Below, piece by piece: positions 33,715-63,867 of a stretch of DNA of 64,000 nt (its first letter is position 1; every line of letters starts with the position of its first letter). Below the pieces are notes generated by a model that did no database searches, was not told the DNA's origin, and was given only the letters and a program-made list of their open reading frames with translations. The DNA comes from a virus, in the IMG/VR virus record IMGVR_UViG_3300044949_002421, positions 1-64,000 of that record, one strand, 5' to 3'. Made by a program: the position numbers and the translations under genes.

Positions 33715-35238
33715 ATGAGCGTTGCTCTAAATATCCCTACCAACAATGCGACGACTGACTTCACAAGTCAGGCGTCCTCGTTTCTTCCCGAGCTTTGGAA
33801 GAAGGGGGTACAACTCTCCGAAGCCGCTGAGAACTTCTTCAACCAGTTCGAAGGGCCGACTGAGAGCTACCCTGTTATGTCCATCCGCGACCTGAGTCGC
33901 GGTGCTGGATCCAAGATCACGTTCCGCACGATGGCCCAACTCTACGGAGAAGGCGTCACCGGCGACACGCTGGTCAACGACAACACGGAAGATTTCCGCG
34001 TTGGCGCGTACAACCTGACCGTCGACTTCCTTCGGCATGCGGTTTCTTACAACCGCCGGCTTGAGGAGAAGACGGCTCTGGCCTCCGAGCTGAAGTCCAA
34101 CGTCCCCGTGATGCTTGGCAACTGGCTTGGCCGCATCAAGACCGAGAAGCTGATGAAAATGTTCCTGCACAAAGGCGGGAGCAAGAATTACATCTATGCG
34201 GGCAACAAGTCCGGCGTGAGCGCCCTGCGTTCCTCCGACGTTGTCAGCTATGATGGCATCATCGCCGCCGGTCAGCAGCTTCGCACTCGCGGGGCCCGTC
34301 CGGCCACGGTCGCCACGATCAACAAGAACAAAATCAACCGCTACGTGGTGGTTTCCACCGGTGAAGGCTTGCTCTCGCTCAAAAGCGAACCCAAGTACCT
34401 CGCCGCCGTGCAGGCCGCCGCCGCTGCCGAAGGCTATAATGGCGTTCAGTTCACCGGCGGGTTCGTTGACCTCGATGGTCACGCGATCCGTCAGTTCGAC
34501 CCGACCGACCACGATGGCTTTGGCGCGATTGGCTCGCCCCTCAACTCGAAGGCCTCTGCGGCCACCGCAGTTGACAGCACCACCGGAAGCTCCGCTATCT
34601 CCCTCAAGGGTGGTGGCGCTGCCTCCGCCATCGACAAGGCTGCCTACTTCAAGCACTTCTCTGGCTATGCCTACAAGTTCATTGAAGGTGACACCCTGTC
34701 GACCGGTGCCGGCTTCGGCCCGACCCAGCAGGCTGACGGCTTCGTTCTGTTGATCAACCCGACCAATGGGAAATACAACATTTTCCATTACTCGGCCAAT
34801 GACGGCAAAACGCTGACGCTGGACCGCACCCTCTTCTCGGGAACCACCGAGACCACGGGCGCGTTCCGCCGTTTGGCAAAGGCTGATTGGAATAGCACCT
34901 ATTCCGCGAACGTTGATACCGCCGCAGATAAGCCGTTCCACTCCAATAACACCACCACCACGTTCCCCGTTGGTTCGCTCATCATCGAGTGCAACTCCAG
35001 CGGCGTGGCGATTGGTCGCTCCCTCGTTCTGGGTGCCATGGCCGCCGTGCGCGGTTACGGCTCCCTTGACGGCGAGCGTTCGGAAGAGAACCACGACGGC
35101 GAATTCGTGCGTAAGACCTACATTACGTCGATCTTCGGCCAGAGCCCGTATGTCCGCCCCGATGGCGAACAGCCCAACTACTTGGTGCTGACCCACGCGG
35201 TGAACTACGCCGGTCTGACCCTGCCGACCATTAGCTAA
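33715..35238 (+). CDS. major capsid protein
   Basis: 507 residues. 'SFLPELWKKGVQLSEAAENFFNQFEG', 'GAGSKITFRTMAQLYGEGVTGDTLVNDNTEDF' and 'VDFLRHAVSYN' follow the N4 gp56/DUF4043 major capsid family: GD-T-ITF motif, 'GVTGD..LEGNEE'-like loop, then 'i..lRHAV'. HK97-type fold by family. Codon use is more biased to C-ending codons than in its neighbours, as for a highly expressed gene. It is followed by a strong terminator. Confidence 0.88.
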   Translation: MSVALNIPTNNATTDFTSQASSFLPELWKKGVQLSEAAENFFNQFEGPTESYPVMSIRDLSRGAGSKITFRTMAQLYGEGVTGDTLVNDNTEDFRVGAYNLTVDFLRHAVSYNRRLEEKTALASELKSNVPVMLGNWLGRIKTEKLMKMFLHKGGSKNYIYAGNKSGVSALRSSDVVSYDGIIAAGQQLRTRGARPATVATINKNKINRYVVVSTGEGLLSLKSEPKYLAAVQAAAAAEGYNGVQFTGGFVDLDGHAIRQFDPTDHDGFGAIGSPLNSKASAATAVDSTTGSSAISLKGGGAASAIDKAAYFKHFSGYAYKFIEGDTLSTGAGFGPTQQADGFVLLINPTNGKYNIFHYSANDGKTLTLDRTLFSGTTETTGAFRRLAKADWNSTYSANVDTAADKPFHSNNTTTTFPVGSLIIECNSSGVAIGRSLVLGAMAAVRGYGSLDGERSEENHDGEFVRKTYITSIFGQSPYVRPDGEQPNYLVLTHAVNYAGLTLPTIS

Positions 35239-35251
35239 ATGGTATTGGACT

Positions 35252-35292
35252 GGGTGGGGGAGCTTAAAACACTCCCCCACCCTCTCCTTTTC
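35252..35292 (+). terminator. Rho-independent terminator after capsid gene
   Basis: Perfect 11-bp stem GGGTGGGGGAG / CTCCCCCACCC with a 9-nt loop, followed by a T-rich tract (TCTCCTTTTCT). It would limit read-through into the gene at 35295. Confidence 0.88.
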
Positions 35293-52430: not shown

Positions 52431-52455
52431 AAAAAACAACGCGGGTAATTGGGTT
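52431..52455 (+). promoter_or_regulatory. A-box/TAATT start signal (4)
   Basis: AAAAAAC (C at 52437), TAATT at 52446, ATG 52456. Back to back with the leftward copy, 80 bp apart. Confidence 0.85.
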
Positions 52456-52830
52456 ATGAAGCCCAAATACGAAATACTAGATATCGCCTGCCGCTACATC
52501 AAACAACGCACCGGCAAGGACAGCCCAACCGACGAATCCTGCCTGATCCTTTCCTTGATGGAGAGGGTGCTAATTGCCGCTGAAGAGGTGGAGAAAAAGA
52601 CTCCCCTGCACTCCACCGCTCTTGAGGTGGCCTACCTTCTCTTCTTTTTATCCATCTCGGTCTCCACCAAGAAGGGCCTGAGCCGCTGGGGGAACATGAT
52701 GTCGGGAGTCACGATGGCCGAAACTCCCCCGATCAAGGGCGAGCCAAAGTTCTTTTCCGAGATGCGCCAATACGGGAGCGGACTCAGGGACGGCTACTAT
52801 GACTTGGTCAAAAGGGCTTCGGCTGGGTGA
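52456..52830 (+). CDS. hypothetical protein (first of early operon)
   Basis: 124 residues. 'SCLILSLMERVLIAAEEVEKKTPLHSTALEVAYLLFFLSISVSTKKG' is helical with a hydrophobic core, but not obviously membrane-bound. The next gene's GTG overlaps its stop (GTGA). Unknown. Confidence 0.55.
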   Translation: MKPKYEILDIACRYIKQRTGKDSPTDESCLILSLMERVLIAAEEVEKKTPLHSTALEVAYLLFFLSISVSTKKGLSRWGNMMSGVTMAETPPIKGEPKFFSEMRQYGSGLRDGYYDLVKRASAG

Positions 52831-53129
52831 AGCGATGCTTTCTCAAGCGCAAAACCCCGCTCAAGCGGTCTGGGAGGCTTCGTCCCTTTACCCAGAAGCG
52901 CAAAGGCCAGTTGGATACCTACAGAAAGTTAAGACTTTCCTATCTAAAAAAGTTCCCTTTCTGCCGTCTTTGCGGAAAGAAGGCGACCCAAGTTCACCAC
53001 AAACGGGGGCGTATCGGGTGGCGTCTTTGCGCCGAGGAATTCTTCATGGCGATCTGCCAAGGCTGTCACGCCGACATCCACGCCAATGGAAGATGGGCCA
53101 GACAAAAAGGCTTCATCCTTCCCGCCTAA
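52827..53129 (+). CDS. HNH-like zinc protein
   Basis: 100 residues, GTG start. Basic N-terminus, then 'CRLCG' (Cys46, Cys49), 'QVHHKRG' (His57, His58), 'CQGCHADIH' (Cys77, Cys80, His81, His85). Two C-x2-C pairs around the HH motif define an HNH endonuclease fold. It may be a packaging-associated nicking enzyme or a homing-type nuclease; freestanding early position favours neither. Confidence 0.75.
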   Translation: MKRCFLKRKTPLKRSGRLRPFTQKRKGQLDTYRKLRLSYLKKFPFCRLCGKKATQVHHKRGRIGWRLCAEEFFMAICQGCHADIHANGRWARQKGFILPA

Positions 53130-53130
53130 G

Positions 53131-53460
53131 ATGAGACGCAGGGGCTTTTGCGGAAGTTCGATGCAGGGAGACTCCCACAGGGTTGCCTCTGCCCTCACGG
53201 CCAAGATCCAGCTTTCCCACTACGGGATGCGCCCAACCCGTGGGGTCATGAAGTCCATGGAAAGGCGGGCCAAGCGCCATGCCAAGGCCGATCACCTATG
53301 GTGCAAGCAGGACACCCCAGAACTTAGTTTCGCCTTGGTCGACAAAGACAGAAACATCATGAAGTTTTCGATGATGACCTACGTCGAGTCGTTTAAGCGC
53401 AACAGGGTCATGAAGGGATTTGGATTTGCTTGGGTCAGATGCGACAGGAGGAACAAATGA
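53131..53460 (+). CDS. hypothetical basic protein
   Basis: 109 residues from ATG 53131, one base after the HNH stop. Arg/Lys/His-rich (MERRAKRHAKADHLWCKQ). Unknown. The next start overlaps its stop. Confidence 0.5.
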   Translation: MRRRGFCGSSMQGDSHRVASALTAKIQLSHYGMRPTRGVMKSMERRAKRHAKADHLWCKQDTPELSFALVDKDRNIMKFSMMTYVESFKRNRVMKGFGFAWVRCDRRNK

Positions 53461-53804
53461 GCTACGAAATCGACGACGCGCCGGACCCGATCCGTGCGCT
53501 TAACTGGATGCGGGACAACGCCGAAAAGCTGGCCAACGCAAAGGCAGAACGGGCCTACATCGAGCAGTTCATCAAAAGCAAAAAGGCCATGCTCATGCAA
53601 CAAGTGTCGGAAAACTCCCCCACCCTAGCCGCACAGGAACGGGAAGCCTTGGCCCACCCAGAATACCTTGAGCTCCTTAAGGCCCACAAAGAGGCCGTGT
53701 TTATTGAGGAGAAGGTCAAAGCCTTGATGACAGCCGCACAAAATCAGATCGAAATCTGGCGAACCCTAGAAAGCACCAAGAGGGCCGAGCTCAAGGCGTT
53801 TTGA
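53457..53804 (+). CDS. coiled-coil early protein
   Basis: 115 residues from ATG 53457. Almost entirely helix: 'NWMRDNAEKLANAKAERAYIEQFIKSKKAML', 'EREALAHPEYLELLKAHKEAVFIEEKVKALM', then 'WRTLESTKRAEL'. This composition and order resemble a widespread small phage coiled-coil protein of unknown role. Confidence 0.55.
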   Translation: MSYEIDDAPDPIRALNWMRDNAEKLANAKAERAYIEQFIKSKKAMLMQQVSENSPTLAAQEREALAHPEYLELLKAHKEAVFIEEKVKALMTAAQNQIEIWRTLESTKRAELKAF

Positions 53805-54343
53805 TGGAAAAGGTCGACCTAGCCGTTACCGCCGGCGAACAGGGCCGTGAGGACACCCAATGGTTCACCCAAGGGCTGGCCGCAGCCCTATGCTCTCCCC
53901 TGCCCATGCCCAACCGGCTTTGGCTGGATGTCGGGGCCGGCCTTGGGAGGTCAAGGGAACGTATTGAGCCACATGGGTTTCGTGTCATCACTCAAGACCC
54001 TGCTCCGGATCTTCCGGTCGACACCGATCAGCCGCTTGAAAAAATCTATGGCGAGTTTGGGGTCGTCTCAGCGTTCGATGTCATCGAGCACGTTAAGGAC
54101 GTTCCGGCTTTCTCCAAGGAGCTCTCAAGGCTCAGTTGCGGGTATGTGGCCATCTCCGCCCCATTCGATGCAGACAGCACCTACCACTTCCAAGTCTTCA
54201 CACCGCAATCCCTGCTTCAGCAAACATCCTCAATCGGGACACTTGTGCTGGCTTACGAGCTGGGCGAAGGCTGGGTCAGGCGGATGGACCACCGCATCAA
54301 GGAAGGCTTTGGTGCCCTGCTTATATACAGCGTGGGTAATTAG
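53804..54343 (+). CDS. SAM-dependent methyltransferase (class I)
   Basis: 179 residues. Motif I 'LDVGAGLGRS' (Asp42-Ser50), 'ITQDPAP' after strand 2, 'SAFDVIEHVKD' (Phe91-Asp99) after strand 4, 'YVAISAPF' later: the Methyltransf_11/23-type layout. The second motif is typical of small-molecule, lipid or protein methylation, not of DNA methyltransferases (no DPPY or PC motif). Its last codons run through the start signal of the next gene. Confidence 0.78.
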   Translation: MEKVDLAVTAGEQGREDTQWFTQGLAAALCSPLPMPNRLWLDVGAGLGRSRERIEPHGFRVITQDPAPDLPVDTDQPLEKIYGEFGVVSAFDVIEHVKDVPAFSKELSRLSCGYVAISAPFDADSTYHFQVFTPQSLLQQTSSIGTLVLAYELGEGWVRRMDHRIKEGFGALLIYSVGN

Positions 54344-54346
54344 GTC
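54325..54346 (+). promoter_or_regulatory. A-box/TAATT start signal (5), weak A-box
   Basis: ATACA (C at 54328), TAATT at 54337, ATG 54347. Spacings 9 and 10 hold although the A-run is broken. Confidence 0.7.
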
Positions 54347-54451
54347 ATGAGAGCCGTCTTTTATGCGTTCTGGTTCAACCTTGGATTCATGGTCGGGCTG
54401 TTGCTGACCTTGGTGCCAATCCTCCTTATCCGGGGGATCTTCAAAATATGA
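54347..54451 (+). CDS. small membrane protein
   Basis: 34 residues (MRAVFYAFWF...), one hydrophobic span covering most of it (NLGFMVGLLLTLVPILLI). Has the start signal. Followed by a gene in an ATGA overlap. Confidence 0.6.
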   Translation: MRAVFYAFWFNLGFMVGLLLTLVPILLIRGIFKI

Positions 54452-54621
54452 TCGTCTCCCCCTCCAGACTCAAGAGGGTCGCCTTGGAGATTGCCGCACG
54501 ACGGCACCACAAGTTCACGCGCATATCCCGTGAGTTTATCGAGAAGGCTGACCGCCATCTTGTGCATTGGATCGAGTCCCACATCAGCTCGCTCCCTTCC
54601 AAGGGAAAGACAATCAAATGA
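54448..54621 (+). CDS. small basic protein
   Basis: 57 residues (MIVSPSRLKRVALEIA...), Arg/His/Lys-rich, helical. Coupled by ATGA overlaps at both ends. Unknown. Confidence 0.55.
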   Translation: MIVSPSRLKRVALEIAARRHHKFTRISREFIEKADRHLVHWIESHISSLPSKGKTIK

Positions 54622-54713
54622 CTGAACTAGACAAACAAGTGGCGTTTGCCCACCGGTGCTACATCGCCGGCATTGTCGTGGGCGCCCTGCTCGGTTCTCT
54701 TGCCCTGCTTTGA
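54618..54713 (+). CDS. small membrane protein
   Basis: 31 residues (MTELDKQVAFAHRC...), C-terminal half a hydrophobic span (IAGIVVGALLGSLALL). ATGA overlap with the previous gene. Confidence 0.5.
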   Translation: MTELDKQVAFAHRCYIAGIVVGALLGSLALL

Positions 54714-55000
54714 GACAGGGTTCCAAGGTTGTCTGCGTCGATGACCGGTTCCCTCCGGAGATATTTATCTACTACACCCAGCTGCCCATCAAGGATCGCA
54801 CCTACACCATCAGGGACATGGGGGTGGGAATTTCTCACAAGGGCGAGGTCGGGGAGATCGTCGTTTACCTAAACGAGCTGACCAACCCAGCATCGAACAA
54901 GCCCCCTCACCCCGAGCGTGGCTTCGCACAATGGAGGTTTCGAGAGATCGAGCCCCCCGCCGAGGTCGAGGAGGAGCAAGTCTTAGAACAAGTCGGGTAA
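54710..55000 (+). CDS. hypothetical acidic protein
   Basis: 96 residues, likely TTG start overlapping the previous TGA (TTGA); an upstream ATG at 54656 lies inside the preceding gene. 'VVCVDDRFPPEIFIYY' then 'KDRTYTIRDMG' is a beta pattern with an Asp/Glu-rich C-terminus. Resembles small SH3-like phage proteins that begin 'VvCvdd'. Confidence 0.55.
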   Translation: MRQGSKVVCVDDRFPPEIFIYYTQLPIKDRTYTIRDMGVGISHKGEVGEIVVYLNELTNPASNKPPHPERGFAQWRFREIEPPAEVEEEQVLEQVG

Positions 55001-55007
55001 TTGGGGC
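54987..55007 (+). promoter_or_regulatory. A-box/TAATT start signal (6)
   Basis: GAACA (C at 54989), TAATT at 54998, ATG 55008. The TAA of TAATT is also the stop of the previous gene. Confidence 0.75.
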
Positions 55008-55325
55008 ATGGAATGGGAAACAGTTGGAAGGCATAAGCTAAAAAGCTTCAAAAACAGCCCTTGGGTCATGGTCAAAAGGCGGGTCAAGATCCGGAAAGCC
55101 AAAAACCTCTGGGATTGCTACTGGTATAACACCCGAGCCCGCATCTTCACCAAATACATGGCGGAGCCCAGCTACAAAAGGGCTACAGGAAAAAAGGGCA
55201 TGGAGCTGGCCTCTTCCCTGCTCCTCTGTCTAGACCCAGCCGACGAATGGGCTCACCCCCGCCAGTCTGTCCGCTTTTTCCGTGGGATAGGCCAGATGGA
55301 GCTTTTCAAAAAACAAAGGGAGTAA
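55008..55325 (+). CDS. hypothetical basic protein
   Basis: 105 residues, Lys/Arg/Trp-rich (KNSPWVMVKRRVKIRKAKNLWDCYWY). The stop is shared with the next start signal (TAATT). Unknown. Confidence 0.5.
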   Translation: MEWETVGRHKLKSFKNSPWVMVKRRVKIRKAKNLWDCYWYNTRARIFTKYMAEPSYKRATGKKGMELASSLLLCLDPADEWAHPRQSVRFFRGIGQMELFKKQRE

Positions 55326-55332
55326 TTGAGTC
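55308..55332 (+). promoter_or_regulatory. A-box/TAATT start signal (7)
   Basis: AAAAAAC (C at 55314), TAATT at 55323, ATG 55333. The TAA again ends the upstream gene. Confidence 0.85.
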
Positions 55333-56001
55333 ATGCCAAACCACATCACAAACAAACTGACAATAATGGACGGGAAGCTCGGAAGCATCAAAGAGAGGCT
55401 GAAATACTATGTCTCCAAGGATGATGACGGCAAAGAGAGCATCGACTTCAACAGGGTCATTCGGATGCCCCCTTCCCTTCAAATCACCGCCGGCGGCTCG
55501 GTTGACGAGGCCATGGCTGCAATCAAGGAGGACACAAAGTTCTTTGCCGAGAGGTTTGAATGGTGGAGCGGCAAGGGCTCATGGCTTGAGACAGAGGGCA
55601 TCAAAACCCCCAAGGACTTGATGGAATACAAGCGGAGGACGCTTTCCAAAGAGGCTCTGGAGGAAGGCAGGAAGGCCATCGAGAACCTCAAGAAATACGG
55701 CCACAAAGACTGGTATGGCTGGTGTTGCGACAAGTGGGGGACGAAATGGAACTCCTACGACACAACTTGGGATGACAGCGAGGTGACCTTCCTCACCGCT
55801 TGGGCTCCCCCCGATCCGGTCATCCAGAAGATGGCGGACGAGACCGGACTCACCATCCAGAACGAATGGTGGGACGAGGGAGACCCCGACAACATCGAAA
55901 TCTCCATCTTCAGTCCGGAGATTGACGGGATCAAACCGGAATACGCCCCGATCCGCCGAAAGAGGAATTCAAACAAGCGATGGGTGGTCGCACTTCCATA
56001 A
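55333..56001 (+). CDS. YubB/DUF1281-like protein
   Basis: 222 residues. 'MPNHITNKLTIM', 'IDFNRVIRMP', 'YGHKDWYGWCCDKWGTKWNSYD' and 'VTFLTAWAPPDPVIQKMADETG' match the YubB ferredoxin-like family (DUF1281) found on plasmids and phages. Function unknown. Full length. Confidence 0.78.
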   Translation: MPNHITNKLTIMDGKLGSIKERLKYYVSKDDDGKESIDFNRVIRMPPSLQITAGGSVDEAMAAIKEDTKFFAERFEWWSGKGSWLETEGIKTPKDLMEYKRRTLSKEALEEGRKAIENLKKYGHKDWYGWCCDKWGTKWNSYDTTWDDSEVTFLTAWAPPDPVIQKMADETGLTIQNEWWDEGDPDNIEISIFSPEIDGIKPEYAPIRRKRNSNKRWVVALP

Positions 56002-56022
56002 AACAAGAAAGGTAATTGAGTT
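56000..56022 (+). promoter_or_regulatory. A-box/TAATT start signal (8)
   Basis: AAAAC (C at 56004), TAATT at 56013, ATG 56023. Confidence 0.85.
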
Positions 56023-56424
56023 ATGACAGCACTAGAACTTATCAGATCGAAACAGAGGATGGAAAAAGCGGCCAAGGATCACGCCGAGGCCGTCAAGCAA
56101 CGGCAGGAGGAGGAGGATGCTGAAAAGTTTGCCCCACTCAAAAAGATATATGAAGAGGTAAGGCATCTCCCCGCAAAGCCAAGATACAATCACTCTAACT
56201 CTTGCACCGAAACAATTAAGGGTATGTGGGAGAGCAGGCTCACTCCCCGCCACATTGAGTTCTGGAATGACATTGGCGGTGGAGGAGGGTGGAACCTTAC
56301 GGCTGAAGGCGGAACAATCTACCTAGTCGATCACTATCGGGACATTGGCAAGACCGAGGATATCGAGGAGGCCAAGGGATGGCTGGTCGAGAAGCTCGCC
56401 ACAATGCTGGAGGATGAGAAATGA
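56023..56424 (+). CDS. hypothetical protein
   Basis: 133 residues. Charged helical N-terminus, then 'WNDIGGGGGWNLTAEGGTIYLVDHYRDIG' (Gly-rich, beta). The ATGA overlap with a 14-codon frame follows. Unknown. Confidence 0.5.
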   Translation: MTALELIRSKQRMEKAAKDHAEAVKQRQEEEDAEKFAPLKKIYEEVRHLPAKPRYNHSNSCTETIKGMWESRLTPRHIEFWNDIGGGGGWNLTAEGGTIYLVDHYRDIGKTEDIEEAKGWLVEKLATMLEDEK

Positions 56425-56465
56425 GCATCTGCAAAAAGAAACAACAAACGGAAGCGATGAAATGA
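56421..56465 (+). CDS. 14-codon linking open frame
   Basis: MSICKKKQQTEAMK, with ATGA overlaps on both sides. It may be a coupling peptide that carries ribosomes from the gene at 56023 to the one at 56462, or a chance frame. Confidence 0.35.
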   Translation: MSICKKKQQTEAMK

Positions 56466-56608
56466 AACAAGCATTAACAAAAATAGTTAAACTGATTGAG
56501 GGCTGGGCAGACGATCAAAAACAAAGGCACGAAGATGTCCTGCTCAAGATTCTAAATACGGCATTAAAAGCCTTAAACCCGAAGCCGAAAAACAAGCGGG
56601 GTAATTAG
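56462..56608 (+). CDS. small hypothetical protein
   Basis: 48 residues (MKQALTKIVKLIEGWADDQK...), helical. Stop lies in the next start signal. Unknown. A longer in-frame start at 56414 is possible. Confidence 0.5.
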   Translation: MKQALTKIVKLIEGWADDQKQRHEDVLLKILNTALKALNPKPKNKRGN

Positions 56609-56612
56609 GTAT
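56588..56612 (+). promoter_or_regulatory. A-box/TAATT start signal (9)
   Basis: AAAAAC (C at 56593), TAATT at 56602, ATG 56613: 11 nt, one more than usual. Confidence 0.8.
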
Positions 56613-56664
56613 ATGAAAACAATCAATCTGGACGGATTCAAGGAGCATAAGCCATCCCGCAAGA
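56602..56664 (+). repeat. direct repeat, copy 1 (with 57105-57166)
   Basis: From TAATT through codon 17 of the gene at 56613, this copy is nearly identical to 57105-57166: signal core, then MKTINLDGF-EHKPSRKK. The second copy starts the longer gene. A local duplication is the simplest explanation. Confidence 0.8.
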
Positions 56665-56714
56665 AGGGGGCGGGAAATAAACAAACAACAAAGAAAGGAA
56701 ACACACACAAATGA
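56613..56714 (+). CDS. truncated paralogue of the gene at 57115
   Basis: 33 residues. The first 18 (MKTINLDGFKEHKPSRKK) differ from the gene at 57115 only at residue 10; the rest is unrelated (GAGNKQTTKKGNTHK). The next gene overlaps it by ATGA. Probably a remnant of a duplication that still carries a working start signal. Confidence 0.55.
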   Translation: MKTINLDGFKEHKPSRKKGAGNKQTTKKGNTHK

Positions 56715-56926
56715 AAACGACGCAACCAGCCGAAGCGATGACGGCCAAAGATCATCTTCGCATTAAAGAATTGTTGGAAACTATTTCGACGCTTCGTTCT
56801 GCTCTCGACGAGTGTCTTGACTTTGTTCAGCAGGAACACGACTACGACAATCCGAGCGGAACAACTGCTCGCCTCATGTCGGAAATTGATGAGGCGATCT
56901 GGCAAGCTGATGAGGTGACAAAATGA
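56711..56926 (+). CDS. hypothetical helical protein
   Basis: 71 residues (MKTTQPAEAM...), acidic helix bundle pattern (LETISTLRSALDECLDFVQQEHDYD). Starts in an ATGA overlap. Unknown. Confidence 0.5.
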   Translation: MKTTQPAEAMTAKDHLRIKELLETISTLRSALDECLDFVQQEHDYDNPSGTTARLMSEIDEAIWQADEVTK

Positions 56927-57111
56927 AATACTTACACGCCTTTGATCTTGCATCTTGCGTGGAAAACGAACACGAAGACTTTTACAACACGCCCAAAGGG
57001 GAACTTATCAATGCGATGAGGGCAAGGCTGTCCGGCCTAACGGACGAAGAGGTCTTTGATGCGTTTGGCCACATTGAAACTAATTGCATTGAAAACAAGG
57101 AGACTAATTAG
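56923..57111 (+). CDS. small acidic protein
   Basis: 62 residues. 'NTPKGELINAMRARLSGLTDEEVFDAFGHIE' helical and acidic. Starts in an ATGA overlap; its stop falls in the next start signal. Unknown. Confidence 0.5.
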   Translation: MKYLHAFDLASCVENEHEDFYNTPKGELINAMRARLSGLTDEEVFDAFGHIETNCIENKETN

Positions 57112-57114
57112 ATC
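57092..57114 (+). promoter_or_regulatory. A-box/TAATT start signal (10)
   Basis: AAAAC (C at 57096), TAATT at 57105, ATG 57115. GG before TAATT is replaced by AC. Confidence 0.8.
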
Positions 57115-57705
57115 ATGAAAACAATCAATCTGGACGGATTCACCGAACACAAGCCATCCCGCAAGAAGGAACCCAAGCCCCTTCTGAAGGTCGATGGCAA
57201 GCCCGTGACAACCTTTGTGAAGGCCAAGCAAGCCTTTGACCACGCCGAGTCCGACCTTCGCAAGGCCAAGGAAGACCTGCTGGATGCGGCATCCCTCGAA
57301 TTCTGGCGCATGAACCACGCCCGAACCACGGCTGGCGAGCTTCCCGCATCCACCGCCGAGATGCAGGGTGAGGACTGCACGGCAAAGATCACGATGGCGA
57401 GAATGTATCCCGCCGTCACAGGCGAGGAGGTTTTGTCGGTATTGCCCAAGCCAATCTTCGAGACTGCCTTTCAGCAGAGCTTCGATTTCAAAATTGATGG
57501 CTCCAAGCTGAATCCCGAAACCGCTGGCGAGTTTGTCACCGAGCTTCGGATGCTTGTCGAAAAGCACCGCAGTTCACAGGCGATCACAATCAAGCGTGGA
57601 TTTCAGCCCACCGAGCAGTTCCACCTTGAGCGACACAAGATTCTGAAGCCAGAGCAGAACCTACAACTTCAGTCGGTTTGCCCTGCGAGAATCTATGTCA
57701 GTTGA
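57115..57705 (+). CDS. hypothetical protein of the amidoligase operon
   Basis: 196 residues. Short basic head shared with the truncated copy at 56613, a coiled-coil (VKAKQAFDHAESDLRKAKEDLLDAAS), then a mixed alpha/beta half ('LPKPIFETAFQQSFDFKIDGSKL'). No family recognised. It overlaps the nucleotidyltransferase by 11 nt and so is probably made with it; it may be a scaffold or substrate protein. Confidence 0.5.
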   Translation: MKTINLDGFTEHKPSRKKEPKPLLKVDGKPVTTFVKAKQAFDHAESDLRKAKEDLLDAASLEFWRMNHARTTAGELPASTAEMQGEDCTAKITMARMYPAVTGEEVLSVLPKPIFETAFQQSFDFKIDGSKLNPETAGEFVTELRMLVEKHRSSQAITIKRGFQPTEQFHLERHKILKPEQNLQLQSVCPARIYVS

Positions 57706-58291
57706 ATCAGCCACCACCCTGCTCACGAAGTCGCCGAGGCTACCGCTCCGACCCTACTCCTGCATCACGGCACTTCAGTTGCAGTCTTTTTGCGACTGGA
57801 GTTTTGAGCCGAAGATAAACGGATGGAGGTGCGTTGTGGATGCCGAGCGTGGAAGGGTGATTTCACGGCACGGCACAACCTTTGCCGAGTCGGGACACAT
57901 ACTGGACATAGTCTCCAACACGCCGACCCTTGCCGGTCTCGGTTTACTCGACTGCGAGTTCCTTGGAAGGAGAACCAAGGCTGGCAAGGGATCGGTTGTG
58001 GTGATGGATGTTATGGATTCCACCCTCCCCTATCTGGAAAGACGCACCATGCTCGACAGCCTTTGCGAAGTCCCGCTGGACGACATCCCCACAAACGCAA
58101 TCCTCCGATTCCCCGCCTACACACAGGAACAGGCCAGAATGATCCTTGAGGATATGCGGGAGGTGAATGACCGCCGTTGCGAGGTGATTTGGGAGGGTTT
58201 TGTGGCCAAGCACAACGCCTCGCCCTACCCACGCAAATACGACCAGAACGAATGTCGCTACTGGGCGAAAGCCCGACTCCTCACCGCATAA
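57695..58291 (+). CDS. minimal ATP-dependent ligase-like nucleotidyltransferase
   Basis: 198 residues. Motif I 'EPKINGWR' (Lys40 nucleophile, Arg45), 'SRHGT' (Arg58), motif III 'LLDCEFLG' (Glu88), 'VVMDVMD' (Asp105), motif IV 'EGFVAK' (Glu167-Lys172) and motif V 'YWAKAR' (Lys192) are all present in order: the covalent AMP/GMP transferase fold of ATP-dependent DNA/RNA ligases and capping enzymes. It ends right after motif V, so the usual OB-fold is missing. In motif I the common Asp is Asn (K-I-N-G). It may be a small nick-sealing ligase, or a nucleotidyltransferase acting with the amidoligase next to it. Confidence 0.8.
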   Translation: MSVESATTLLTKSPRLPLRPYSCITALQLQSFCDWSFEPKINGWRCVVDAERGRVISRHGTTFAESGHILDIVSNTPTLAGLGLLDCEFLGRRTKAGKGSVVVMDVMDSTLPYLERRTMLDSLCEVPLDDIPTNAILRFPAYTQEQARMILEDMREVNDRRCEVIWEGFVAKHNASPYPRKYDQNECRYWAKARLLTA

Positions 58292-58292
58292 C

Positions 58293-58314
58293 AAACACGC
58301 CGGGTAATTGAGCC
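58293..58314 (+). promoter_or_regulatory. A-box/TAATT start signal (11)
   Basis: AAACA (C at 58296), TAATT at 58305, GTG start 58315. The only member with GTG. Confidence 0.8.
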
Positions 58315-59538
58315 GTGAAGAGGCTCACACTCGGAGGATTCAAAAGAAAGTTCGGCATCACAGGGCTGGACGAAATCGACTCCGACCCAAACACCCTCAC
58401 CGCCTACATCAAGACCCTTCGGGAATATGCGGACGGCGGGTGGATGGAGCAAACCGAGCCAGAAAACTTGGAAAACGGGATCAAACCCAAAAACACAGGG
58501 GGTAATTCTGGCATGAGATTAAGCAAACAACTCCGTGATAGGTGGTATGCACGATGCCTTAACATCAGCGTCAACGAGCTGGACAAGGAAAAGAAACGCT
58601 GGGAAACCCGCAGGGAGAACTGGGGCAAGCTATCCTTTGTCCGACACAACCTGAAGGCCAACAAGGTCAATCCGACCATCGAGGAAAAATACTTCGAGAC
58701 CTTTAAGGGCGACCTTTGCTCGGTTGAGTTGGAATGCGTTTTCGAGAGTGCCGAGATGATCCCCAGCCTCAAATCCGTTGGACGCTACTTGGTCGACAAG
58801 GAGGATGACGGCTCCTTGGAGTATTATCCCCAGCGGGAGGATCGAAACAGGGACGAGGACAACGAGGACGAGTCGGAATGCTCGGATGACTGGGGTGCCG
58901 CCGAGTTCAAAGTCACCTTCCGGCACGAGCGTCCCCTCCGACTCCGATCCGTTGTGGACAAGCTGAATGCTTGCGGTGCGGAGGTGAACACCACTTGCGG
59001 AATGCACCTTCACCTCGACCAGCGGGGCATCTCCTCTGCGATGGCCAGCAAGCGAGCCAAGCGTCTTATCAAATGCCTTCCCGCATTGACGCAGATTGTG
59101 GCTCCCAGCCGTCTTCGAAATAGCTACTGCCATATCAACCGCCCGATCCGTAGGGGCGTGAACTATCGCCACCAGACCAACCGCTACTTGGCGATTAACC
59201 ACGCTTCCGCCTACCTCGAACACACGACAACCGAGAACAGGCTACACGGCGGGACGCTGGACTTCTGGAAAATTATGGGATGGGTCGATCTGAACAAATG
59301 GATTATGCGGTCGGCCGAGGTCGATGCAGTCGCCGATGCCAACAGCCTACGCCATCCAGAGGGCGAGATTAGCGTCAGCTTCGATGACATGATTCGGTTC
59401 AAAACGCTCCCCGAAACGATCCGCAGTTATATGTGGAGACGCTATCGCCAGTTTCACCCCGCCGAGGCCATTACCCTTCGGGAGAAGTTGCTTCGGGAAG
59501 ACCAACACAGGCTTACGGATGGCTACGCCGTCAGCTGA
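58315..59538 (+). CDS. amidoligase (Amidoligase_2 family) with N-terminal extension
   Basis: 407 residues from GTG 58315. From about residue 142, 'CSVELECVFES' (the family opening GVEIE), 'FRHERPLRLRSVVDKLNACGAEVNTTCGMHLHLD' (the CG-x-H-x-H motif), 'LRNSYCHIN', and 'NHASAYLEHTTTENRLHGGTLDFWKIMGWVDLNKWIM' (the closing E-x-R..GTLD element) are the hallmarks of the phage/plasmid amidoligases: glutamine synthetase-like enzymes thought to join amines or ammonia to carboxylates. The first 66 residues could be a separate gene: a second start signal lies in frame at 58489-58512 before ATG 58513. The glutaminase gene follows. Confidence 0.82.
   Translation: MKRLTLGGFKRKFGITGLDEIDSDPNTLTAYIKTLREYADGGWMEQTEPENLENGIKPKNTGGNSGMRLSKQLRDRWYARCLNISVNELDKEKKRWETRRENWGKLSFVRHNLKANKVNPTIEEKYFETFKGDLCSVELECVFESAEMIPSLKSVGRYLVDKEDDGSLEYYPQREDRNRDEDNEDESECSDDWGAAEFKVTFRHERPLRLRSVVDKLNACGAEVNTTCGMHLHLDQRGISSAMASKRAKRLIKCLPALTQIVAPSRLRNSYCHINRPIRRGVNYRHQTNRYLAINHASAYLEHTTTENRLHGGTLDFWKIMGWVDLNKWIMRSAEVDAVADANSLRHPEGEISVSFDDMIRFKTLPETIRSYMWRRYRQFHPAEAITLREKLLREDQHRLTDGYAVS
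58489..58512 (+). promoter_or_regulatory. in-frame internal A-box/TAATT start signal (12)
   Basis: AAAAAC (C at 58494), TAATT at 58503, ATG 58513; spacings 9 and 10. It lies inside an open frame that continues on both sides. Translated, the signal gives N-T-G-G-N-S-G. Confidence 0.8.
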
Positions 59539-59561
59539 AAAACAGAAAGGATAATTAAGTT
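59538..59561 (+). promoter_or_regulatory. A-box/TAATT start signal (13)
   Basis: AAAAAC (C at 59543), TAATT at 59552, ATG 59562. Confidence 0.85.
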
Positions 59562-60632
59562 ATGTGCAGACTAATTGGATTCAGCGTTGAGAAACCCCTT
59601 ACGAAGGAACAGCTGGAAAAAATGATTAACACCAGCCGTGACCTTCTGAAGGATCAGAAAGACGGATTCGGCTATGCCCTATCGGGCGGGGAGATTGATG
59701 GCATCACCCATCTTCGCCTTGTGACTGGCTCCCTGCTTGGCTACGGATACGATCCGCTTGGCGAGTGGGAGTCAGTTGCCCGACCCACTTTCGACTCCAA
59801 AGGATTGGTCAAACCCTGCACGGCTGGATTGTTTCACGGACGGACTTCGACCAACGACATTGGGATCAAAAATACCCATCCGTTTGTGAACGATGAGCTG
59901 GCCTTGGCTCACAACGGAATTGTGGATTACACCGGACCGAACAGGAAAAAGATCGGGACTTGCGACAGCGAAGACCTTTTCAATACCTTCACCAAGGGCA
60001 AGGGCTGGAAGGAGCTTTCCAAGTATTACGAGGGCTACGCCGCCCTTCTGATTCTACGCAAGGACGGCCATCTTACCCTATATCGGGACGAGACCCCTTC
60101 CCTCTATGTGATGCGTTTTAATGGCGGGTTTATTGTCTCAACCAGCAGTTATGACGGCACGGAATTGGTCAAAGCGGTCTTCGGGCAAGTTTCGCAAGCC
60201 CCGATCCAGATCAAAGCCAACCATGTAGTCACAACGAAACATGGTGCAATCCTCGACAAGAAGCGGGTCAAACCGATTGCCAGAAAGAGCTACGCCAAAG
60301 ACCAGTTGTCCCTTGGATACAGCACAACCTTCGACTACCCCAAAAAGAAAACCAAAGGCGGATGGGCGGACGGCGACAGCGAAGACAGCGGTATCGGGGA
60401 TTACAGCGGGAGCGGGACAGATGCCGACTACCAGAACGGATATGACGAGGGCTACCACGACTCGGTAAACGCCTCTGGCTACTACGAAGACCGAACACAA
60501 TCCAAGAAGTTCCTCGATGGCTACCAAAAGGGCTACCTAGAGGGCGAAAAGGAGATGGCAAAACTCGATGAGGTGGAAGTTGCCGAGGGAGCCGAGGACG
60601 AGGTGGACGAGCTGGAGGTCGCCAGCCCGTAA
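59562..60632 (+). CDS. class II (Ntn) glutamine amidotransferase
   Basis: 356 residues. Cys2 (MCRLIGFS) is the N-terminal nucleophile after Met removal. 'DGFGYAL', 'LFHGRTSTNDIGIKNTHPF', 'LAHNGIVDYTGP' and 'CDSEDLFNTF' are the glutaminase loop, oxyanion and Asp motifs; 'RDETPSLYVMRF' and 'FIVSTS' follow. It frees ammonia from glutamine. The last 100 residues are an acidic Gly/Tyr tail of its own ('GYDEGYHDS', 'GYQKGYLEGEKE'). Directly after the amidoligase, it probably feeds it ammonia, as in known amidoligase clusters. Confidence 0.87.
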   Translation: MCRLIGFSVEKPLTKEQLEKMINTSRDLLKDQKDGFGYALSGGEIDGITHLRLVTGSLLGYGYDPLGEWESVARPTFDSKGLVKPCTAGLFHGRTSTNDIGIKNTHPFVNDELALAHNGIVDYTGPNRKKIGTCDSEDLFNTFTKGKGWKELSKYYEGYAALLILRKDGHLTLYRDETPSLYVMRFNGGFIVSTSSYDGTELVKAVFGQVSQAPIQIKANHVVTTKHGAILDKKRVKPIARKSYAKDQLSLGYSTTFDYPKKKTKGGWADGDSEDSGIGDYSGSGTDADYQNGYDEGYHDSVNASGYYEDRTQSKKFLDGYQKGYLEGEKEMAKLDEVEVAEGAEDEVDELEVASP

Positions 60633-60655
60633 AAAACAACGGGGGTAATTTAAGT
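60631..60655 (+). promoter_or_regulatory. A-box/TAATT start signal (14)
   Basis: AAAAAAC (C at 60637), TAATT at 60646, ATG 60656. Confidence 0.85.
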
Positions 60656-60904
60656 ATGACAAATTCAAATAACCTCCAAACCATTCGGAAGAAGCTTGTC
60701 GATGCAGTTGTGGAAGTCGGGAGCTGGAACAATGCGATGATCCAACTCTCCCACAAGCCGAGGAAGGACAGGGACACCGAGCTTGTTGAGATGCTTGACC
60801 ACGCCTACGCCATTCGGGACTACGCCGAGCAGTTGCAAACCCTCCTTCGGGGATACCAGATTCAGAAGGACAAGGTCATCCAAGCGATGGAGATGGCAAT
60901 ATGA
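60656..60904 (+). CDS. hypothetical helical protein
   Basis: 82 residues, helix-rich (TIRKKLVDAVVEVGSWNNAMIQL..; YAIRDYAEQLQTLLRGYQIQ). The next gene overlaps it by ATGA. Unknown. Confidence 0.5.
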   Translation: MTNSNNLQTIRKKLVDAVVEVGSWNNAMIQLSHKPRKDRDTELVEMLDHAYAIRDYAEQLQTLLRGYQIQKDKVIQAMEMAI

Positions 60905-61095
60905 TCCCCTTCGACACGCTAAAGGGGTGGGTCAGACAGGACTTGACCGAGCTTTCCAAGCTTGGGAGCCGGTTTGCGGACGATGCCGTCAGGGCGGTGG
61001 ACTCTGGAAAGTATGACGATGTTATCGGGGATTTTGGAGGCGGGAGTGTCACCGACTTGTCCGACCTAATCATCTCACTTGAGGAAACACGCTAG
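60901..61095 (+). CDS. small hypothetical protein
   Basis: 64 residues (MIPFDTLKGWV...). Starts in an ATGA overlap. 'GGGSVTDLSDLIISLEETR' at the C-terminus. Unknown. Confidence 0.45.
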   Translation: MIPFDTLKGWVRQDLTELSKLGSRFADDAVRAVDSGKYDDVIGDFGGGSVTDLSDLIISLEETR

Positions 61096-61106
61096 GTAAT
61101 TCTTAT
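61085..61106 (+). promoter_or_regulatory. A-box/TAATT start signal (15)
   Basis: AAACA (C at 61088), TAATT at 61097, ATG 61107. The previous gene stops within it. Confidence 0.8.
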
Positions 61107-61421
61107 ATGAACGACCTAACAGACGACACGAAACTGAATTGTGCGGGCGAATTTATGACGGCCTGCGAAAACTCCCACCAACTCAGCCAAGCAGTTTCAA
61201 TTCTGTCTTCCCTGCTTGATGACGGACTTGTGGGCTTGGAGTTTGTGGAAAACATCGCCGATGCCTTGGCTTACTCGATTGAACAGGCAAAAGAACACTA
61301 CAAGGACATAGAAGATCAAGAGGATCGGGAGAATCTTCAGAGCGAGACACTAAACGGAATCCTTGAGTTTTCCCACGCCTACCTAGCCAAGACTTACGAG
61401 AAGAAGGTTGGGAGGGCTTAA
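61107..61421 (+). CDS. hypothetical acidic protein
   Basis: 104 residues, acidic and helical (VENIADALAYSIEQAKEHYKDIEDQEDRENLQ). Unknown. Confidence 0.5.
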   Translation: MNDLTDDTKLNCAGEFMTACENSHQLSQAVSILSSLLDDGLVGLEFVENIADALAYSIEQAKEHYKDIEDQEDRENLQSETLNGILEFSHAYLAKTYEKKVGRA

Positions 61422-61443
61422 AAACATTATGAGTAATTATTAT
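61420..61443 (+). promoter_or_regulatory. A-box/TAATT start signal (16)
   Basis: AAAAAC (C at 61425), TAATT at 61434, ATG 61444. The base before TAATT is the last of GAG. Confidence 0.8.
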
Positions 61444-61563
61444 ATGCAAATCAAAGAAACCAAAGAGCAACTATTAGACGGCAGAATCAAAGTCGTCCGA
61501 ACCATCAGAAAACCAAACCTATCAGTTGTCGATATTGTGACCTACGAGGGGGCAAGAAAATGA
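61444..61563 (+). CDS. very small protein
   Basis: 39 residues (MQIKETKEQLLDGRIKVVRT...), basic. Has the start signal and an ATGA overlap to the next gene, which together support a real gene. Confidence 0.55.
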   Translation: MQIKETKEQLLDGRIKVVRTIRKPNLSVVDIVTYEGARK

Positions 61564-61961
61564 GCAAGTCAAAGACCCCAAAAACCGATGTTAGCGACAG
61601 GCTTCTGACCTTTGTATCGGGATGTCTTGGACTTGCGGGGAGCTTTCCAGAAGGCCGAGTGAGCAACGCCTTGGCTGATTCACTCCTAAAGCCATCCGTT
61701 GCCTCTTATTTTCGCCACGGAGAGGCGGAAGGCTCGCCCTCGGCCAAGGAGTTTACGGAGAAATTTCGGGAAGTCTTGAAGGAGCTACGCACAACCCGCA
61801 GGGCTTTGCAGATGATTCAGAAAACAGCCGTGAAAGGATTGATATCGCTGGGTGACTCCTGCGACTTGGATTCGGTAAAGGACTTGCTTGAGCAAGCGGA
61901 CGAGCTTGTGAGGACTTTCTTCCAGTCGGTCAGAGTCCTCGAAAACAAGGTGGGTAATTGA
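61560..61961 (+). CDS. hypothetical protein
   Basis: 133 residues. Leading basic segment, then helices (LLTFVSGCLGLAGSFPEGR; FREVLKELRTTRRALQMIQK). Last codons run into the next start signal (VGN then stop). Unknown. Confidence 0.5.
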   Translation: MSKSKTPKTDVSDRLLTFVSGCLGLAGSFPEGRVSNALADSLLKPSVASYFRHGEAEGSPSAKEFTEKFREVLKELRTTRRALQMIQKTAVKGLISLGDSCDLDSVKDLLEQADELVRTFFQSVRVLENKVGN

Positions 61962-61964
61962 ATT
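61942..61964 (+). promoter_or_regulatory. A-box/TAATT start signal (17)
   Basis: AAAAC (C at 61946), TAATT at 61955, ATG 61965. Confidence 0.85.
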
Positions 61965-62225
61965 ATGAAGCAAAAAACCAACCGACAAATCTTCAAACAG
62001 GCGATTCAAAACTTGGACGACATCACGCTGGCCATCCTTCGGGAGAGGATTCTCTCGATCACCGAGGCCACGCTTCGGGACAAGGAGGAGGTCAAGAAGC
62101 AGATGACTGGCTCCTTCTTCAATCCCGACAGCTGGATTGGGTTTATTGAGAAGATTCACGAACAATTCAAATTCGAGAACAGCGGAAAGTTCTTTTTCAA
62201 CACGCCCACCACAAAGGCCGGATGA
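61965..62225 (+). CDS. hypothetical protein
   Basis: 86 residues (MKQKTNRQIFKQAIQNLDD...), helical. ATGA overlap to the next gene. Unknown. Confidence 0.5.
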   Translation: MKQKTNRQIFKQAIQNLDDITLAILRERILSITEATLRDKEEVKKQMTGSFFNPDSWIGFIEKIHEQFKFENSGKFFFNTPTTKAG

Positions 62226-62575
62226 GCAAAAAAGAAATAGATTACTACGGCGATAAGGACAACTACATCCACCTCAAATTCGGGGATTGCAGAAAAGCCT
62301 ACAACTTCACAACGGAGTTCAAAAAGGCACATCCAGAATTTGCGGAAAAATATAAGCGATATTGGGATTGGGAGAATGGGGGCTTTGAAGACTTCAAAAA
62401 TCCCTTCCAAGTGGTGGCTTATGCCTTCAAGAAAAACATTCCAGTTCGCTTTTATTACAACTACACGGACGAACCTGCAAAGGGGTATGAGGACATCATC
62501 GACTACTTGGTGCGAGAAAACACCTTCGTTCCAGATGCGGGAGCAATCCAAGCCAAAAACTTTAAGGGTAATTAA
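62222..62575 (+). CDS. hypothetical protein
   Basis: 117 residues, rich in Tyr, Phe and Lys (EIDYYGDKDNYIHLKFGDCRKAYNFTTEFKK). Compact alpha/beta look. Unknown. Confidence 0.5.
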   Translation: MSKKEIDYYGDKDNYIHLKFGDCRKAYNFTTEFKKAHPEFAEKYKRYWDWENGGFEDFKNPFQVVAYAFKKNIPVRFYYNYTDEPAKGYEDIIDYLVRENTFVPDAGAIQAKNFKGN

Positions 62576-62578
62576 GGT
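62555..62578 (+). promoter_or_regulatory. A-box/TAATT start signal (18)
   Basis: AAAAAC (C at 62560, followed by T not A), TAATT at 62569, ATG 62579. Confidence 0.8.
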
Positions 62579-62881
62579 ATGAACCCCAAAATCAAAGAAG
62601 CGATCAAAAAAGAATTAGACCCTATTGATGTCGAGCAACGCTATCGGGACTTGCTCGATGAAGTGTATCCAGAGGTCAAAATAGGATACGCAACCTATTC
62701 CCCTTCCCAAATCGTGGAAGAGCTTTCTCCCACGGACTTTAGGGTCGGGGTAGCCGACTACACAGGAACCGAGGAAAACCTTACCGAGGTGGACGGCGAG
62801 TATTACGACACAAGCGAGGTGGATGAAATCACGGAACGAATCGAGGACGAGGAAGTCAAAACACAAGGCGAAGACCAATGA
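62579..62881 (+). CDS. acidic hypothetical protein
   Basis: 100 residues, strongly acidic in the second half (TEVDGEYYDTSEVDEITERIEDEEVK). Next gene in an ATGA overlap. Unknown; the acid stretch could mimic DNA. Confidence 0.5.
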   Translation: MNPKIKEAIKKELDPIDVEQRYRDLLDEVYPEVKIGYATYSPSQIVEELSPTDFRVGVADYTGTEENLTEVDGEYYDTSEVDEITERIEDEEVKTQGEDQ

Positions 62882-63036
62882 CTTGGGAGGAGCGAGTCAC
62901 ACAACTGGAGGAGCAAGGCCTCACACGGAGCGATGCACAGGGAGCCGTTGATGTCGAAATTCTGGAGGGATGGAGGCCAAGCGATTTTCAGCCGTGGATG
63001 TTATGCCAGAAAACAGCCGAGGTAATTAGGGTATGA
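62878..63036 (+). CDS. small hypothetical protein
   Basis: 52 residues (MTWEERVTQLEEQG...). ATGA overlaps at both ends. 'LTRSDAQGAVDVEILEGW' helical. Unknown. Confidence 0.5.
   Translation: MTWEERVTQLEEQGLTRSDAQGAVDVEILEGWRPSDFQPWMLCQKTAEVIRV
63010..63032 (+). promoter_or_regulatory. A-box/TAATT start signal (19)
   Basis: AAAAC (C at 63014), TAATT at 63023, ATG 63033. Lies within the previous gene's last codons. Confidence 0.85.
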
Positions 63037-63182
63037 ACAATACAACCACAACCATCACAGACGGCGAAAAAGAGCAGAACAAGCGGATCAAAGCCAACTT
63101 GGCAGAGGTGGATTGGACTCACACCTCACTTGAGGAGTTGGAGGATGTTTTCGAGGACAGAGACCCCTTGGAATTCCTTTGA
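63033..63182 (+). CDS. small acidic protein
   Basis: 49 residues (MNNTTTTITDGEKE...), acidic C-terminus. Unknown; too short for ordinary gene calling but has the start signal. Confidence 0.55.
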   Translation: MNNTTTTITDGEKEQNKRIKANLAEVDWTHTSLEELEDVFEDRDPLEFL

Positions 63183-63206
63183 TCGGGGAAAACAAGAGAA
63201 CCCAAG

Positions 63207-63228
63207 AAACATCCAAGGTAATTAGGAT
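63207..63228 (+). promoter_or_regulatory. A-box/TAATT start signal (20)
   Basis: AAAC (C at 63210), TAATT at 63219, ATG 63229. A second AAAAC at 63189-63193 is too far upstream to count. Confidence 0.85.
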
Positions 63229-63645
63229 ATGAACGAAACCAACCAGCAGATCGCAAATGTCGCCAAGGAAGCGATTGAGAAAATCCTCACCCTTCTGGAA
63301 ACGACACAAACCCCAACCGAAACCCAAGACCAAGAGACGATTGAACGGCATCGTGAAAGCGTTATCGATAAGGCGGTCGATTCGATCCTTGAGGATTCGA
63401 GCCAGATTAAGGACGACATCGTGGACAAGGTCGCCGACTCGATCGACAACTCCGACATAAGCGACTCCGTTTATGACCGCCTCGATGTTGACGACATTGT
63501 CAGCGGGGTGGCCGAGCGGATCGATGACGATGAGGTCGCCCAGAAGGTGGCCGAGAACCTCGACACCGATTCGACAGAATTCTACCGCAATCTTGCAAAG
63601 GGCTTGCTGGAGGTGATTAGGGAGGAGGCGAAAGTATCCGCCTAA
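63229..63645 (+). CDS. acidic repeat protein
   Basis: 138 residues, about 30 percent Asp/Glu. The middle is a loose helical repeat ('IKDDIVDKVADSIDN', 'DVDDIVSGVAERIDDDEVAQKVAENLD'). Elongated acidic repeats can mimic DNA and block DNA-binding enzymes; nothing further supports this here. Confidence 0.5.
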   Translation: MNETNQQIANVAKEAIEKILTLLETTQTPTETQDQETIERHRESVIDKAVDSILEDSSQIKDDIVDKVADSIDNSDISDSVYDRLDVDDIVSGVAERIDDDEVAQKVAENLDTDSTEFYRNLAKGLLEVIREEAKVSA

Positions 63646-63684
63646 ACTTGGGGGATCGGGGTGGGAGGTGACTAACCACGCCCG

Positions 63685-63708
63685 AAAAACGCCAAGGGTA
63701 ATTAAAGC
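63685..63708 (+). promoter_or_regulatory. A-box/TAATT start signal (21)
   Basis: AAAAAC (C at 63690), TAATT at 63699, ATG 63709. Confidence 0.85.
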
Positions 63709-63867
63709 ATGAACAACCTAACCGAAATCTACTGGATGCTTGAAAACTGCACGGATGAAATCAATCGGGTCGATGCCTTTGACCGACTCTTAAACGAGAT
63801 CGGAACCTCGACACGAGTCCACCGCACGATTGGGCGGGTGGAGGAGCTGGCCATAGGGGTCGAATGA
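63709..63867 (+). CDS. small hypothetical protein
   Basis: 52 residues (MNNLTEIYWMLENCTDE...). Has the start signal; next gene in an ATGA overlap. Unknown. Confidence 0.55.
   Translation: MNNLTEIYWMLENCTDEINRVDAFDRLLNEIGTSTRVHRTIGRVEELAIGVE

Follow-up and report, generated by a model that had tools for sequence, protein, structure and literature searches.

An amidoligase–glutaminase gene pair and a neighbouring single-domain ligase-like gene in a 64-kb viral genome stretch

Described amidoligase cassettes and the locus studied here

Genes for amidoligases and glutamine amidotransferases stand together in several described phages, and a further pair of this kind is the subject of this study. 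It lies in the window, by which is meant the whole stretch of 64,000 nucleotides analysed (positions 1 to 64,000 of IMG/VR virus record IMGVR_UViG_3300044949_002421), where the genes P0003 (amidoligase) and P0004 (glutaminase) stand beside two others, P0001 and the ligase-like P0002. The four genes are probably best seen as two neighbouring modules, an amidating pair (P0003 and P0004) and a group-specific unit (P0001 and P0002), a judgement that mostly concerns the split into modules and the amidation chemistry. The published systems used for comparison are represented here by excerpts of the cited papers. According to these, LUZ24-like phages, PSA-HP1 and phiEco32 carry a cassette of amidoligase, glutamine amidotransferase, gamma-glutamyl cyclotransferase (GGCT), ATP-grasp and COOH-NH2 ligase genes (PMC5498523, PMC10580990 and PMC11945000, citing Iyer et al. 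2009 and Hardies et al. 2013). In the LUZ24-like phage UFV-P2 an amidoligase, an HNH gene and a glutamine amidotransferase are consecutive (PMC3890496), and the set in PSA-HP1 is termed a 'peptidoglycan modification cassette' (PMC5498523). Phage tf (PMC3517423) and the Arthrobacter cluster AL phages (PMC5513430) are also covered by the literature compared, and cell-wall hypotheses for such genes are given for phage U17 (PMC11945000). The marine OM43 phages MEP401 and MEP402, together with more than 30 metagenomic viral genomes, are reported to have PF12224 and PF13522, and the amidoligase and glutamine amidotransferase of these phages are viewed as preventing superinfection (PMC10580990). Throughout these excerpts the product of phage amidoligase–glutaminase pairs is a predicted one, and no ligase-fold protein was found described in such a cassette in the literature searched.

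The locus resembles those of the LUZ24-like phages, PSA-HP1 and phiEco32 in that an Amidoligase_2 gene lies near a class II glutaminase gene in a tailed phage, wall modification being the role predicted there in the excerpts. It differs in that only two such genes are present in the window. In the record neither PF13772 (GGCT) nor PF14397 (ATP-grasp), the two models used for these families, was matched, and a search for the COOH-NH2 ligase was likewise without result, though it gave no match anywhere. The OM43 phages are likened to the window by family reports, the two Pfam families being the same. As far as the excerpts go, phage amidoligase–glutaminase pairs with a predicted wall-modifying role have been described before, and the pair in the window is a further example. 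Two details are new here: the two in-frame start signals of the amidoligase and the start-proximal motif that marks the genes of the region.

When the phage collection was searched with the P0003 protein, 30 records matched, each at less than 60% identity and over less than 80% of the query; the five inspected for neighbours were those of Edmundo, Ottawa, two Porphyromonas phages and one Bacillus phage. The glutaminase adjoins the amidoligase in the Arthrobacter phages Edmundo and Ottawa, where the amidoligase is followed by a glutamine amidotransferase domain protein in the order and on the strand seen in the window; however, amidoligase identity is 23-26% over about 40% of the query, and no ligase is annotated in the stretches read. 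No annotated glutaminase is present in the stretch around the amidoligase of the two Porphyromonas phages and the Bacillus phage, the last of which has a gamma-glutamyl cyclotransferase there, so phage amidoligases without a glutaminase also exist. P0004 matched three phage records, of which two were inspected. In the Manatee Spring phage the amidoligase is upstream of the glutaminase with one small gene between them, and KZY1 has a full cassette, comprising a cyclotransferase, an 'aminotransferase' (the P0004 match), a COOH-NH2 ligase, an amidoligase and a glutathione-synthase/RimK-like ligase. When genome contigs were scanned with P0004, two weak matches (29% identity) were obtained.

The amidoligase–glutaminase pair

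The preliminary description of this DNA had reported four adjacent open reading frames (ORFs), and all four are present where it placed them. The ratio of nonsynonymous to synonymous substitution rates (dN/dS) is 0.08-0.17 across the four genes in pairwise comparisons of the window with the related contigs L003 and L004, which sets these ORFs beyond chance: the genes are real and the selection on them is purifying. The four proteins of a further contig, L002, are identical to those of the window.

P0003 (58315-59538, + strand) has 407 residues in its long form, which starts at a GTG codon. It had been assigned to Amidoligase_2, and this is borne out by a PF12224 score of 47.2 bits against a curated cut-off of 22; the short form discussed below scores 47.8 bits, also above that cut-off. 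Ten amidoligases were aligned: that of the window, three from related contigs and six from named phages, the L004 row being left out. Residues E138, E140, D165, S167, E197, G229, H231 and H233 are invariant in all ten, as are R266, C272, R290, N295, E307, R309 and W323; M67 is in the invariant set too, but the short form begins with it. The ExE, E, HxH and ExR residues of a glutamine synthetase-like active site are kept in all ten sequences, the choice of catalytic residues following what is known of glutamine synthetase.

P0004 (59562-60632, + strand, 356 residues) is a class II, N-terminal nucleophile (Ntn) glutaminase with a GYxxGY repeat and an acidic tail. It scores 23.6 bits against GATase_6, below the Pfam cut-off of 27 (E 5.8e-5); for the partner proteins of Edmundo and Ottawa the scores are 61 and 53 bits. 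A cysteine stands directly behind the initiator methionine, and the Arg, Asn-Gly and Asp of the glutamine site, presumably equivalent to those of GlmS, are also present. In an alignment across unrelated phages, C2, R94, N118, G119 and D135 are invariant in eight of eight sequences, and the other invariant positions include H92, T97, N104, H106, P107, H117 and S136. Of the earlier account of an Ntn glutaminase with an acidic tail, the catalytic part holds; the tail was seen only within the window's group. The GYxxGY repeat ahead of the tail is more widely spread and occurs in other lineages. It lies at 60350-60540, in the C-terminal part of P0004, and its counterpart in L005 weakly matches Yae1_N (E 0.0017, below cut-off).

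When viral contigs were scanned with P0003, P0004 and their alignments, 19 contigs with an amidoligase were found, including the window-identical L002. The glutaminase is directly 3' of the amidoligase, on the same strand and with a gap of 16-23 nucleotides, in 18 of the 18 contigs that show both; the nineteenth, L015, ends inside the amidoligase, so that only this gene is visible. Outside the window's group, identity to the window is 43-51% for the amidoligase and 46-66% for the glutaminase, the value of 66% coming from a partial gene. In the listed loci of L005-L014 the pair adjoins, divergently, opposite-strand genes that are terminase-like and portal-like as named by sequence reading. At eight loci of other lineages the pair comprises the sole genes found in common with the window (in L015, the amidoligase alone), as compared with a longest-ORF-first gene caller; L007, L009 and L010 stand outside these eight reported loci. 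The same caller overlooked the amidoligases of L027, L033 and L034, which are intact when the frames are read. Retention of the pair across phage lineages is as expected of one functional unit, and the view that amidoligase and glutaminase form such a unit is well supported by these gene neighbourhoods.

The chemistry of the pair can be proposed from its families. P0004 would free ammonia from glutamine through its N-terminal cysteine, and P0003, with a glutamine synthetase fold, would activate a carboxylate with ATP and couple it to the ammonia, so that an amide results. By analogy with the published cassettes the likeliest target would be a carboxylate of a host cell-wall peptide, an assignment that is put forward tentatively. 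Amidation might then alter the wall of the infected cell, as a defence against superinfection or as a step towards lysis. Amidoligase–glutaminase pairs recur in tailed phages, and the lineage of the window and its relatives have a minimal two-gene form of it, common to phages in which no other shared gene was found in the compared stretches. This minimal pair in otherwise unlike phages therefore makes a clean test case for identifying what is amidated. Of lesser weight are the puzzles posed by the single-domain ligase and by the two starts of the amidoligase.

The ligase-like protein P0002 and the probable division into modules

P0001 (57115-57705, + strand), the first gene of the group-specific module, encodes 196 residues. 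As first described, it matches no known family: its one Pfam match is at chance level (E 0.17), and no Ku, Gam or OB family was matched at E up to 1. Its orthologues are 93% (L003) and 87% (L004) identical with a dN/dS of about 0.08, and those of P0002 (57695-58291, + strand, 198 residues) are 91% and 83% identical with a dN/dS of 0.10-0.14.

P0002 had been described as a ligase-fold nucleotidyltransferase ending right after motif V. Its ligase family matches and early stop agree with this; its motifs do so in part, with KING in place of KxDG and KAR in place of KxK. Profile matches are to phrog_114 (E 6.8e-7) and to TIGR02779, a non-homologous end joining (NHEJ) ligase model (E 8e-9; 35.1 bits, far below the NCBIfam cut-off of 227.75 for the full-length model), and the Pfam family DNA_ligase_A_M is reached only at E 0.013. 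In an alignment with the LigD proteins of two phages, the segments FEPKINGWR, LDCEFL, MDVMD, WEGFVAKH and YWAKAR are taken to be motifs I, III, IIIa, IV and V, respectively. The motif I lysine (Lys40, codon at 57812-57814, + strand; invariant in six of six aligned ligase domains) is retained, as are the motif III and IV glutamates and, in motif V, the first lysine; the protein stops four residues past the KAR of motif V, with no OB domain and no motif VI. By its sequence, P0002 is a stand-alone adenylation domain of the NHEJ/LigD ligase type, reduced and without an OB domain.

Motifs I, III, IV and V are shared with NHEJ LigD and LigC and with LigD of the Sinorhizobium phages phi2LM21 and phiLM21 (29-31% identity); P0002 differs from these ligases in lacking the OB domain and in its KING and KAR variants. 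The protein WP_091810707.1 (197 residues), from a Prauserella marina plasmid, ends directly past motif V like P0002, to which it is 33% identical; its residues 24-194 align to positions 19-204 of the 204-position Pfam domain, nearly the whole. Unlike P0002 it has canonical KxDG and KIK motifs, and no amidoligase is annotated within about 3 kb. An OB-less ligase domain therefore occurs without an annotated amidoligase nearby.

Wider searches also lead to DNA ligases. P0002 gave no match in the phage collection at E 0.01; at E up to 10 six weak records appear (E 0.2-3): five carry a DNA ligase annotation, phiLM21 accounting for two of the five, and the sixth is an annotated ERF protein. Among 30 listed of 44 plasmid matches the named features are mostly ligD or ATP-dependent DNA ligase. 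Among solved structures no match was significant, and the best one to a ligase was Rv0938 (E 0.07). A PF04679 search of the record gave no match, that is, no separate OB domain was found. A PF01068 search of the record gave no match either, P0002 itself included, and so excludes only a strong second ligase in the record. A frameshifted full-length ligase was considered as an origin of P0002 and rejected, as both diverged relatives stop at the same place and PF04679 has no match.

The co-occurrence of three enzymes implied by the preliminary description is found for two of them. The amidoligase and glutaminase occur together in all the contigs that show both, but P0001 and P0002 homologues are present in only three of the 19 amidoligase contigs (L002, L003 and L004), all in the window's group. 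Such homologues were not found within the stretch read of the other 16, and 15 of the 18 contigs that show the full pair are without them. Whole-record searches of seven of those 16, whose records may be fragments, gave no P0001 or P0002 homologue either, and repeated viral-contig searches with the two proteins returned relatives in the same three contigs each time. Neighbours of the pair thus differ outside the window's group as far as the ligase-like protein is concerned, and nothing was found that joins P0002 to amidation chemistry. That no described role for a truncated ligase in such a cluster was found in the literature searched is most likely because P0002 is not part of the cluster; from these neighbourhoods it seems to adjoin the amidating set locally as a separate gene, without being its third member.

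P0002 overlaps P0001 by 11 nucleotides and is the sole gene of the four without a start motif (see below), which points to translational coupling of the two. As a reduced ATP-dependent ligase P0002 would by itself perform at most adenylation steps. Its probable substrates would be the ends of nucleic acids, on which it might work unaided or together with a DNA-binding protein, P0001 being one candidate. A special case of this P0001–P0002 module is a split end-joining or nick-sealing ligase, in which P0001 would be the DNA-binding part that replaces the OB domain and P0002 the adenylation part. The overlap, the strong joint conservation of the two proteins and the proximity of P0002 to NHEJ-type ligases favour this proposal, which nevertheless seems unlikely, as P0001 lacks any match to Ku, Gam or OB families and its AlphaFold model, built on a three-sequence alignment, is unusable (predicted local distance difference test score, pLDDT, 41). 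It is also rather unlikely that P0002 is a non-sealing, non-catalytic remnant that has a regulatory role or that binds and sequesters the ends of DNA or RNA. The KING and KAR variants and the missing motif VI would fit such a protein, but the retained lysines and glutamates and the low dN/dS count against it.

A single four-gene pathway, as first suggested, would have P0002 adenylylate a carboxylate or a protein and the pair aminate the product. The unbroken order in the window, L003 and L004 and the purifying selection on all four genes are consistent with it. However, 16 of the 19 amidoligase contigs show neither P0001 nor P0002 in the part read (one of them being cut before the glutaminase), and the nearest families of P0002 are DNA-end-joining ligases. 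Amidoligases with a glutamine synthetase fold activate carboxylates with ATP themselves, so that a separate adenylating enzyme would be superfluous. A single pathway, unsupported beyond one phage group, is therefore improbable. Least probable of all is a P0002 that has departed from nucleic-acid repair to adenylylate a small molecule, a protein or the N-terminal extension of P0003, thereby feeding or controlling the pair in this group.

Several observations weigh against the division into two modules or against the roles proposed for them. The four genes are uninterrupted in all three contigs that carry P0001 and P0002, one of which is identical to the window, and the flanking genes on either side vary among contigs carrying all four; an unbroken block with differing flanks makes some functional tie among the four genes possible within the window's group. 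The predicted model of P0002, from a three-sequence alignment, has a pLDDT of 35, too low to judge the fold by. In addition, the GATase_6 score of P0004 is sub-threshold, and the target of the amidoligase is drawn from published predictions.

The start-proximal motif and other features of the window

A 30-nucleotide motif, AAAACA-N5/6-GGGTAATT-N5-ATG, precedes about 20 gene starts on the + strand, at 52445-63711 and 1141-2767. TAATT-N4-6-ATG is found 22 times in the window; the figure for dinucleotide shuffles is 4.2 (standard deviation 2.1), none of 100 shuffles reaching 22. GTAATT-type sites number 15 in L003, 12 in L004 and 0-3 in loci outside the group. The motif was seen neither at the structural-region gene starts listed by eye nor in the other lineages. 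It may act in translation or in transcription.

Within the four-gene block, a motif search on the + strand places it before P0001 (57092-57114), before the GTG codon of P0003 (58291-58314), inside the P0003 frame before an internal ATG (58488-58512, with GGGGGTAATTCTGGC-ATG at 58498-58515) and before P0004 (59539-59561). The internal copy marks a probable second in-frame start of P0003 at 58513, which would give a short form of 341 residues (58513-59538, + strand), near the 349-353 residues of the relatives in L005-L014. The amidoligase frames of L003 and L004 also have an internal in-frame start motif, arranged as in the window, and the motif precedes both starts in all three, once as GGTTAATT in L004. 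The segment 58315-58512 is thus a 66-residue N-terminal extension in frame with the amidoligase, with its own start motif ahead and the internal motif behind. One possible origin is the fusion of a once separate small gene to the amidoligase; alternatively, P0003 may yield two products.

A 55-nucleotide direct repeat (93% identical) of the 5' end of P0001 plus the start motif is found at 56613-56667 and 57115-57169, with about 500 nucleotides and two small ORFs between the copies. As no second copy was found in L003 or L004, the arrangement resembles the insertion of a cassette at the motif.

Elsewhere in the window, a capsid-like protein (phrog_334, E 7e-21) is encoded at 33715-35280 on the + strand and overlaps a 517-residue open frame on the - strand; it had no match in the phage collection. 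The terminase has weak matches, with 23-29% identity among 15 listed of 348. A single ORF of 4428 residues spans 11487-24773. A Pfam scan of this ORF, which covered all but its last part, matched a GHKL ATPase (HATPase_c_3, E 1.9e-14) and, weakly, a ddrB-like ParB domain in the piece at 14985-18482.

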